IMG/VR virus record: IMGVR_UViG_3300030419_001670
Span: 1 to 27,790 of that record
Source: a virus
Reading direction: 5' to 3' (one strand)
DNA: 27,790 nucleotides
Part shown: piece by piece, positions 23,613-25,778 of the stretch
Layout: every line of letters begins with the position of its first letter
How positions within the stretch are numbered: position 1 is the first letter of the stretch
Translations under genes and position numbers: made by a program
The notes under the pieces: generated by a model
What the model was told of the DNA's origin: nothing
Seen by the model: only the letters and a program-made list of their open reading frames with translations
Databases searched by the model: none

Positions 23613-23921
23613 ATGAAAAAAATACCAGACTACAAAAAAAGAATTAAATATTCTAGTACAAAGACCTGGAAACAAAGACGACCTAATCAAAGGTTAATTA
23701 ACTGTCCTGTTATTTACAATGCAGACGGCAAACCTGTGTCTGCTGTAAGCGATTTAATGAGTGCAGTATTTGAAACAGGATTAAAATTAGAAGGCTACAA
23801 GTATTTTTCAACTACTTGTCATGAACATCCAGGAAAAAAATGTGGGAGTTTTTGGACAGAGGTTACAGGGATAAACAGACAATATGTATACAAAGAAGGA
23901 AAAAAATTAAAAAATCAATAG
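23613..23921 (+). CDS. 102-aa basic protein upstream of rusA
   Basis: ATG 23613 has only a weak AAAGAGATT upstream. The protein starts MKKIPDYKKRIKYSSTKTWK, very basic, then INCPVIYNADGKPV and a later cysteine/histidine segment TTCHEHPGKKCGSFW. A nucleic-acid-binding role is plausible but unproven. It ends with a TAG at 23919-23921 in the same frame as the following RusA reading frame, so readthrough would give a fusion. TAG is used as an ordinary stop by several other genes here. Confidence 0.6.
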   Translation: MKKIPDYKKRIKYSSTKTWKQRRPNQRLINCPVIYNADGKPVSAVSDLMSAVFETGLKLEGYKYFSTTCHEHPGKKCGSFWTEVTGINRQYVYKEGKKLKNQ

Positions 23922-23939
23922 CATTTTAGAGAGCATAAT

Positions 23940-24389
23940 ATTAATACTAGAACATACACTTTAACATTTTACGACATTCCACCTTCTGAAATAAGAGGCA
24001 ACAGCAGGGCAATCCACCCTGTTAAAAGAAAAATAAACAGAGAGAGAAGAGATGTGGCAAGGATGATTGGGTTAGATGCAAAGGACAAAGACGAGCCTAT
24101 AAATAAAGTAGAAGTAAGTTATTATTTCTATCACATAAGAGAAATAGATTTAGATAATTTAATTATAGGAATGAAATCTACTATGGATGGGATAATAGAC
24201 AGTGGAATAATGTTAGATGACAAGCCTTCTCTCATGGAATACGGAAAGATAAAATTTTACAAGTTGAAAATGTGTACTGGATGCAACAAAGAAACTTCTT
24301 ATATGGGAGACACGCATAAAAATCCTAAGTATTGTTTAAAGAAAAGAAAAGAAATAAAAACTATTGTAGAATTAAAGGAAATCATATGA
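23940..24389 (+). CDS. rusA: RusA-type Holliday junction resolvase, apparently with a non-standard start
   Basis: RusA cuts four-way DNA junctions. The RusA pattern is clear: N-terminal NTRTYTLTFYDIPPSEIRGN, RDV-type helix, then DLDNL (Asp70, Asp72), Lys79, Asp83 and the LDD pair (Asp93-Asp94), the catalytic acidic cluster. A GTG at 24054 would cut off the first 38 residues including the conserved PPS region. No ATG, GTG or TTG occurs between the in-frame TAG (23919) and 24054, so I propose ATT 23940, six bases after AGAGAG. A C-terminal CTGC...H...C segment (Cys112, Cys115, Cys132) is unusual for RusA. Stop overlaps the next ATG (ATGA). Confidence 0.75.
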   Translation: MNTRTYTLTFYDIPPSEIRGNSRAIHPVKRKINRERRDVARMIGLDAKDKDEPINKVEVSYYFYHIREIDLDNLIIGMKSTMDGIIDSGIMLDDKPSLMEYGKIKFYKLKMCTGCNKETSYMGDTHKNPKYCLKKRKEIKTIVELKEII

Positions 24390-25141
24390 AGCACATAGTA
24401 AGTTTGAGTGGAGGCACTGCTAGTGCAATCGTTGCAGATCTAGTATTAAAGAAATATGGCAGAGACAATGTTATTCTTTGTTTTATGGACACCAGCTGGG
24501 AGGATGAAGATCTATATAGATTTCTTGATGACCTGGAAAGTTATTGGGAGATAGAAATGGTTAAATTAAAAGATGGCAGGACACCACTGCAAGTAGGAGA
24601 AGATCAAAAATTTATATTAAACTCTAGAGTAAAAGCCTGTAGCAAAATCCTAAAACAACAAATGTTTAGAAGATTTATAAAAAAAATAGATAAGCCTTTG
24701 ACTATACACTTAGGTTTAGATTGGTCAGAAGAACACAGAATGGCTGCTCCTAAAAAAAATTACGAAAAAATTAAAGGTGTAACTGTAGACTATCCTTTAA
24801 TATGGAAACCTTTGATAAAGAAAAAATATTCTGAAGTAGTAGAGTCTTGGGGAATAGAAATACCTAGACTTTACAAGTTAGGATTCCCTCATAATAATTG
24901 TGGAGGAAGATGTATAGCTCAAGGAAAGAAAGAATGGAAACGATTATTAAATATATTTCCAGAAAGATACAAAGAAGTATCTGATTGGGAGCAGAAGATG
25001 AGAAAAAATTTAGACACTGCTAAAGATAAAAGTATAGTAAAAGGAATAACATTAAAAGAATTAGCTGAAGAAAAAAAGGACCAGCTGCATATGTTTGAAG
25101 GCACAGCAGAGGATTCCTTTGGTTGTTTTTGCGATTACTAA
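24386..25141 (+). CDS. PAPS-reductase-like PP-loop protein, possible Fe-S protein
   Basis: ATG 24386 follows TTAAAGGAAATC and overlaps the rusA stop (ATGA). The PP-loop SGGTAS is at 8-13, which would bind adenine nucleotide. Cys85 lies in RVKACSKILK. NNCGGRC (Cys172, Cys176) and a terminal FGCFC (Cys247, Cys249) could hold a 4Fe-4S cluster. Relatives include PAPS reductases, DndC and sulfur-transfer enzymes, but genes for sulfur chemistry or phosphorothioation (dndABDE) are not seen, so the substrate is unknown. Many phages carry such a gene near replication functions. Sulfur modification of a nucleic acid or anti-defence are options, not shown. Confidence 0.75.
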   Translation: MKHIVSLSGGTASAIVADLVLKKYGRDNVILCFMDTSWEDEDLYRFLDDLESYWEIEMVKLKDGRTPLQVGEDQKFILNSRVKACSKILKQQMFRRFIKKIDKPLTIHLGLDWSEEHRMAAPKKNYEKIKGVTVDYPLIWKPLIKKKYSEVVESWGIEIPRLYKLGFPHNNCGGRCIAQGKKEWKRLLNIFPERYKEVSDWEQKMRKNLDTAKDKSIVKGITLKELAEEKKDQLHMFEGTAEDSFGCFCDY

Positions 25142-25249: not shown

Positions 25250-25428
25250 ATTTTTCCTTTGATAGCATAAACTATTTGCCAAAGTTGTTTCATAATCATG
25301 CTCCGTTCTTTAGTAGTTAACTTCTTATCCTTCCCACTTTCCTCTACAATCTCCAAAAGTTTAATTACCTCTCCGATAACATGACCATACTTTTTGACTA
25401 AGCTATATGCCTGCATAAGATTCTTCAT
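25246..25428 (-). CDS. Late hypothetical protein, 60 aa, helical
   Basis: ATG 25428 lies behind GGAGGTAAAAG and overlaps the nuclease stop (ATGA). The product MKNLMQAYSLVKKYGHVIGE, with KLLEIVEESGKDKKLT and a second helix SMIMKQLWQIVYAIKG, is helical with no cysteine. It is the last gene of the minus-strand late cluster and converges with the early operon. Family unknown. Confidence 0.6.
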   Translation of the reverse strand: MKNLMQAYSLVKKYGHVIGEVIKLLEIVEESGKDKKLTTKERSMIMKQLWQIVYAIKGKI

Positions 25429-25778
25429 CTTTTACCTCCATAGTATTCTGTTGCATGACCTTCTTTTACTAAAATTTTATTAACACTATTCCACTTGTCA
25501 TTGTGGTTTTTAACCAATATCTCTCCTAATACTCTACCATACTTACCTTTATCATGGCTAATTAATCTAGTGTCCTTCTCTCGTACAAGTTCTTTTAACC
25601 TGGCTTTTGCCTGTAGTCCTCTGTACTTTTCTTCTTTGTCTCTTGTCCTGGACTCTGGAGCATTGATGCCATATAGCCTTACTCTTGCCTTGTGCATTAT
25701 CTTAAACCCAAGATCAATAGTAACATCACAGGTATCGCCATCTACCACACGAGTTACTTCGCAATCATAAGTAAACAT
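25425..25778 (-). CDS. Thermonuclease (staphylococcal nuclease-like, SNase)
   Basis: A 117-residue SNase domain protein. It shows VVDGDT (11-16), RLYGINAPE (34-42: Arg34, Glu42) and KGKYGRVLG (77-85: Arg82), the calcium-binding and catalytic set of micrococcal nuclease, and a C-terminal GHATEYYGGKR. No signal peptide is present, so it acts in the cytoplasm or through the late lysis route. The start has TAATG overlap with the 52-aa membrane gene. In a late phage operon it may degrade DNA released at lysis, or trim host DNA; role inferred. Confidence 0.88.
   Translation of the reverse strand: MFTYDCEVTRVVDGDTCDVTIDLGFKIMHKARVRLYGINAPESRTRDKEEKYRGLQAKARLKELVREKDTRLISHDKGKYGRVLGEILVKNHNDKWNSVNKILVKEGHATEYYGGKR

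Follow-up and report, generated by a model that had tools for sequence, protein, structure and literature searches.

AUU is a rare start codon. In Escherichia coli it begins infC and pcnB (PMC4245954), and in Staphylococcus aureus it begins cvfC1, where it is accompanied by an extended Shine-Dalgarno (SD) sequence, as are all three of the non-canonical starts that this source discusses for the species (PMC13009471). Start codons of the AUU type are discriminated against by initiation factor IF3 (PMC4611024). In an E. coli reporter, reinitiation dropped as the intercistronic distance grew and had reached background at 40 nt (PMC2268962). Phage genes for RusA-type Holliday junction resolvases are also known, and among the literature matches listed no phage RusA beginning with AUU was found. 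The gene described here is most likely another AUU-start candidate and, as such, a modest curiosity. It was found in a single virus record of the IMG/VR kind, the full 27,790 bases of which are referred to below as the window.

The RusA frame and its missing canonical start

The end of the rightward gene set in the window consists of a DnaG zinc-finger gene, an AAA_25 ATPase gene, an open reading frame (ORF) of 102 aa (23613-23921, plus strand), the RusA frame (23922-24389, plus strand) and a PAPS-reductase-like gene (24386-25141, plus strand; Pfam PF01507, 4.1e-8; phrog_424, 1.8e-45). The ATG of this last gene at 24386 overlaps the RusA stop codon (ATGA) and has an SD pairing of -5.6. The PAPS-reductase-like gene occupies the place of a 162-aa ORF in a related locus (L004), with no tblastn similarity between the two.

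Directly before the RusA frame lies an in-frame TAG (23919-23921, plus strand), after which the reading is HFREHNINTRTYTLTFYDIPPSEIRGNSRA... up to the TGA at 24387-24389. The codons that follow the TAG are CAT TTT AGA GAG CAT AAT ATT AAT ACT AGA ACA TAC ACT TTA ACA TTT TAC GAC ATT CCA CCT. Between this TAG and the GTG at 24054-24056 (plus strand), the frame holds no ATG, GTG or TTG; the GTG is the first canonical codon, and conserved RusA coding is already present upstream of it. A scan of the frame from 23919 to 24054 thus bears out the preliminary description, which had reported a RusA frame lacking a standard start, and its coordinates for the TAG and for ATT 23940 stand as well. The absence of a canonical start is a genuine property of the printed sequence. 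Twelve open codons devoid of a canonical start are common in themselves, being seen in 53% of comparable open stretches; the oddity is that conserved RusA sequence precedes the first canonical codon, whereas the relatives possess one.

In the other two frames, the sole canonical start between 23871 and 23985 is an ATG at 23884, which opens a mini-frame of 8 codons closed by TAA 23908. Together with the AGAAGGA at 23894-23900, this ATG occupies roughly the place at which RusA begins within the upstream gene of relatives, and is perhaps, as judged by eye, the relic of an ancestral overlapping start.

Identity and predicted fold of the protein

The gene is predicted to encode an ordinary phage RusA-type Holliday junction resolvase, with Holliday junction cutting as its predicted activity; counted from the ATT, the product would be of 149 aa (23940-24389, plus strand). 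The frame read from 23922 matches PHROG 34 (E 2.7e-6) and a profile of PDB 1q8r (E 0.009), and a Pfam search returned no match for the protein, the Pfam RusA family itself failing to recognise it. An AlphaFold2 (AF2) model of the form beginning at ATT, which rests on a 17-row alignment of the window and 16 relatives, has a mean pLDDT of 81.9, with residues 5-10 forming the first strand and residues 26-47 a helix. E. coli RusA is the best match of this model; Foldseek relates it to 2h8e (E 2.4e-4) and 1q8r_B (E 2.5e-4), with TM scores of 0.50-0.55 on the query and a best unrelated E of 3.1e-3, and VIA aligns it to 1q8r_B over 105 residues (Z 10.5, rmsd 2.4), the next unrelated entry scoring Z 4.9. 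The RusA fold, N-terminal strand included, is accordingly present in the predicted model. Residues D70, D72, K79, D93 and D94 are invariant in all 17 rows, and the DxD and DD pairs align with those of 1q8r; the acidic residues of this DxD...DD arrangement and the lysine are presumably those of the active site.

Towards its C-terminus the protein carries an insertion of roughly 25 aa, MCTGCNKETSYMGDTHKNPKYC (24270-24335), with a CxxC...C pattern that is absent from all 16 relatives in the alignment. The insertion resembles a small zinc-binding element and falls in a low-confidence part of the AF2 model.

Related loci and the position of their starts

Related loci were assembled by several routes. 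Three near-identical contigs (L002-L004) were reached through an ATPase of 60% identity, 80 loci were kept from the 263 matches to the neighbouring SNase gene, and one locus whose RusA frame runs off the contig end (L008) was added through a RusA alignment search. Using tblastn, RusA was found in 23 of the 84 loci, at E below 1e-20 in 18 and at E 5e-9 to 3e-8 in the other five. One further RusA gene was found by DNA pattern (L104), and another (L112) is a second RusA on the contig of L018, bringing the related RusA loci to 25; these include near-copies, and 18 are distinct with the N-terminus covered. Neither RusA nor the PAPS protein, used singly as a query for related loci, brought up a relative, and the window showed no DNA similarity to phage records, among which seven of Gordonia and Microbacterium phages have annotated RusA genes that the window protein matches weakly by tblastn.

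Four of the loci (L092-L095) are from genome contigs, and all four are metagenome-assembled genomes (MAGs) of Chloroflexota. They are the RusA relatives from the genome collection and indicate a Chloroflexota host, a binning error being possible. The 47-kb contig G003, which holds L018 and L112, has two different RusA genes (1734-2069 and 42936-43229), 59% and 42% identical to that of the window. Each lies near genes of the leftward structural side, and the contig may be chimeric or a joining of two viruses. Within the window, the SNase-like gene (25425-25778, minus strand) is 91% identical to that of L004, as against 59% for RusA and 37-41% for the 102-aa ORF, a marked mosaicism across the convergent junction.

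The RusA proteins of L002-L004, L008, L015-L022, L024, L026, L092-L095, L104 and L112 are homologous to that of the window at 41-59% identity. Among the 25 related loci, not all of them independent, a canonical start stands 8-25 codons before the PP motif in every case. These genes, on contigs of related viruses and Chloroflexota MAGs, begin with ATG in 24 loci and with TTG in L008, whereas the window has no canonical start. The comparison of RusA starts in relatives that the preliminary description had proposed therefore speaks against conservation: a non-canonical start shared among relatives is usual, though not strictly defining, for AUU-start genes, and here 25 of 25 starts are canonical.

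The same loci bear on the GTG at 24054, from which translation would yield a shortened RusA of 111 aa. This GTG is the first canonical codon, and the SD-like match in front of it (-5.3) is better than that of the ATT. However, the purine-rich DNA that provides the match encodes a conserved NRERRD, and L004, which lacks the GTG, has this DNA unchanged. The GTG codon is residue 39 counted from the ATT and lies within the helix of the AF2 model, and beginning there would delete the first strand and half of the first helix. Additionally, the 33 codons that precede it look normally constrained, with pN/pS values of 0.25 against 0.24 in the downstream block (comparison with L004) and 0.37 against 0.28 (comparison with L104), figures that are rough because silent changes are near saturation. 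The preliminary description had placed the conserved start of RusA upstream of the GTG, a view to be abandoned were relatives to start at that codon; none of the 25 loci does so. The codons upstream of the GTG thus most probably encode a genuine N-terminal part of RusA, and a start at the GTG is very unlikely.

The upstream ORF and the TAG

The ORF that ends at the TAG is homologous to the 109-aa gene preceding RusA in L002-L004 (tblastn, E 1e-19) and matches nine more loci at E 6e-13 to 7e-9, such that a homologue is present in 12 of the 84 loci (L002-L004, L015-L022 and L024). It has no match in Pfam or PHROG, and tblastn against phage records gave none. The upstream gene is therefore common to the window and 12 relatives, but in all of those 12 it lies in a frame other than that of RusA and extends past the RusA start.

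This difference weighs on an alternative raised in the preliminary description, readthrough of the TAG that fuses the 102-aa protein to RusA; RusA would then arise solely as the C-terminal part of that fusion. In the window, one TAG is all that separates the 102-aa ORF from RusA in a shared frame, and the stop context begins CAA-TAG-CA. Equal frames are, however, expected by chance one time in three, and in the 12 relatives simple readthrough would be unable to fuse the two proteins, so that a readthrough fusion is not conserved. The context also departs from CAR-YYA, the readthrough consensus, and the stretches following the TAG show no notable stem-loop structure (z -0.05 and 0.96). The search for tRNA genes was negative for the window, possibly a partial record, and for four related loci on three contigs. 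The earlier statement that TAG serves as an ordinary stop elsewhere is correct, in that it ends seven of the 36 ORFs picked on coding strands, the 102-aa ORF included. Taken with the frames of the relatives, these results leave readthrough a remote prospect, and the proposal in its original form is not upheld. A search of the literature for a RusA Holliday junction resolvase with stop codon readthrough found no paper.

The A7 run at 23900-23906 might allow a slip of -1 or +1, but this was rejected: both alternative frames stop soon, at TAG 23927 and TAA 23908, and neither enters RusA.

Proposed initiation at ATT 23940

The ATT at 23940-23942 (plus strand), 13 codons before the PP motif, is the sole near-cognate codon that the frame offers after the TAG and ahead of the conserved core. 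Support for it comes from position. In L104 and L112, a TAA closes the RusA frame two codons before the ATG, which stands at -12 from the PP motif, and the region reads MTREYTFTIQEVPPKEIRGN; the window counterpart is (ATT)NTRTYTLTFYDIPPSEIRGN, with the ATT at -13. The proteins of these two loci begin MTREYTF..., against (I)NTRTYTL... in the window, sharing a TR-YT pattern after the start, with the ATG placed one codon later than the ATT. In the VIA alignment, residue 1 of E. coli RusA is the first to be aligned and stands opposite residue 3 of the model as counted from the ATT. Conserved coding ahead of the first canonical codon and a near-cognate codon near the homologous start position, both expected of an AUU-start gene, are therefore present, the placing having a 22% probability by chance: of comparable stretches, 22% are expected to have an ATT, ATA or ATC between -13 and -11, and 82% a near-cognate codon of some kind.

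The preliminary description had named ATT 23940 as the best start and pointed to an AGAGAG six bases before it. The hexamer is indeed there (23928-23933, plus strand), but its pairing energy of -2.9 kcal/mol is at background, being equalled by 39% of the 863 ATT, ATA and ATC codons of the rightward region. Only six of 36 picked ORFs have an SD as weak or weaker, the median being -7.6, a value that is approximate because ATG 19605 and several of the TTG starts are mechanical longest-ORF picks and the start of the PAPS gene was misplaced in this set. A strong or extended SD sequence, usual but not strictly defining for AUU starts, is thus wanting. The claim for the ATT holds as to position and fails as to the AGAGAG, and ATT 23940 is the best-placed and most likely RusA start, albeit unproven.

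Weak SD sequences are normal for this gene. The scores for 14 upstream contexts in its kin, a set without the five most distant loci, range from +0.4 to -5.4, and the 102-aa ORF has a weak SD at its own start as well (-2.9). Because the RusA start sits inside the upstream homologue in all 12 kin that have both genes, translational coupling is suggested as the mode of RusA initiation. In the window, the TAG lies 18 nt upstream of the ATT, and the 66 nt surrounding the ATT fold weakly (-0.3 kcal/mol).

From what was computed, namely the frame, its conservation, the predicted RusA fold, the missing canonical start and the start positions of relatives, we infer a protein of the ordinary RusA type beginning at about 23940. 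Initiation at the ATT is favoured because a canonical start is unavailable. The ribosomes, presumably arriving mainly from the upstream gene, would be released from it at TAG 23919 and take up translation again 18 nt further on, in mRNA of weak structure, where the ATT may be read as fMet at a low level to give (M)NTRTYTLTFYDIPP..., of 149 aa. Such weak AUU initiation, aided by ribosomes leaving the upstream gene, has in our estimation an even chance of being correct.

An account that we regard as nearly as likely, although tentative, holds that a canonical start was lost recently, either through a wrong base in the assembly or through a real start-loss mutation, with RusA now poorly made or dying. 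An assembly error and a fresh mutation would each give the appearance seen here. The start-less sequence is known once, from a single virus record. No conspecific contig was found in searches by RusA alignment or by DNA pattern, the patterns of which fit the window RusA; near-identical records may be left out by such searches. The ATT lacks a strong SD, and the canonical starts of all 25 related loci are matched by a wider sample, in which none of 152 N-terminally covered kin genes from ten families is without one (an 11th family yielded no usable locus). This test was lenient, counting any start from the stop of the frame to four codons into the match, and it dropped duplicate loci, contexts that occurred more than once, matches whose first residue lay beyond 16 and those running off a contig end. 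With all 25 loci and 152 of 152 kin genes canonical, the window is an exception. Against such a loss, the remainder of the RusA frame is open, the conserved acidic residues are kept and constraint is normal, so that any loss of the start would have to be recent; the window also contains no N. A single-base insertion or deletion that restores a start was rejected, since the other two frames have no ATG, GTG or TTG from 23887 to 23985 and a single indel cannot supply one.

Beyond weak AUU initiation as such, the AUU might be a regulatory feature of the virus lineage, a lineage-specific replacement of the overlapping ATG of relatives that would keep RusA low and couple it both with upstream-gene translation and with the fidelity of IF3, thereby limiting Holliday junction cutting. 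We consider this unlikely.

Should the AUU start prove genuine, gene callers restricted to ATG, GTG and TTG would give a RusA 38 codons too short, and conserved phage genes without a start would merit a systematic survey. The locus would also be a natural test of whether termination-reinitiation can substitute for a near-absent SD sequence. If the start was instead lost to an error or a fresh mutation, the locus is merely a warning on single metagenome contigs.

Comparison with known systems

Relative to E. coli RusA (PDB 1q8r, 2h8c and 2h8e; PHROG 34), the window protein has a like predicted fold over residues 3-149 and has the acidic motif DxDN...K...DD in common with it. It differs in being only 19% identical to 1q8r_B, in its C-terminal CxxC...C insertion of about 25 aa, and in being encoded by a gene without a canonical start. 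The RusA genes of related loci share with it a mostly weak SD. As in infC and pcnB of E. coli and cvfC1 of S. aureus, AUU is the only plausible start of a conserved protein. The cvfC1 gene, as described in the source cited for it, has both a strong, extended SD sequence and a conserved non-canonical start (PMC13009471), whereas the RusA gene of the window has neither.
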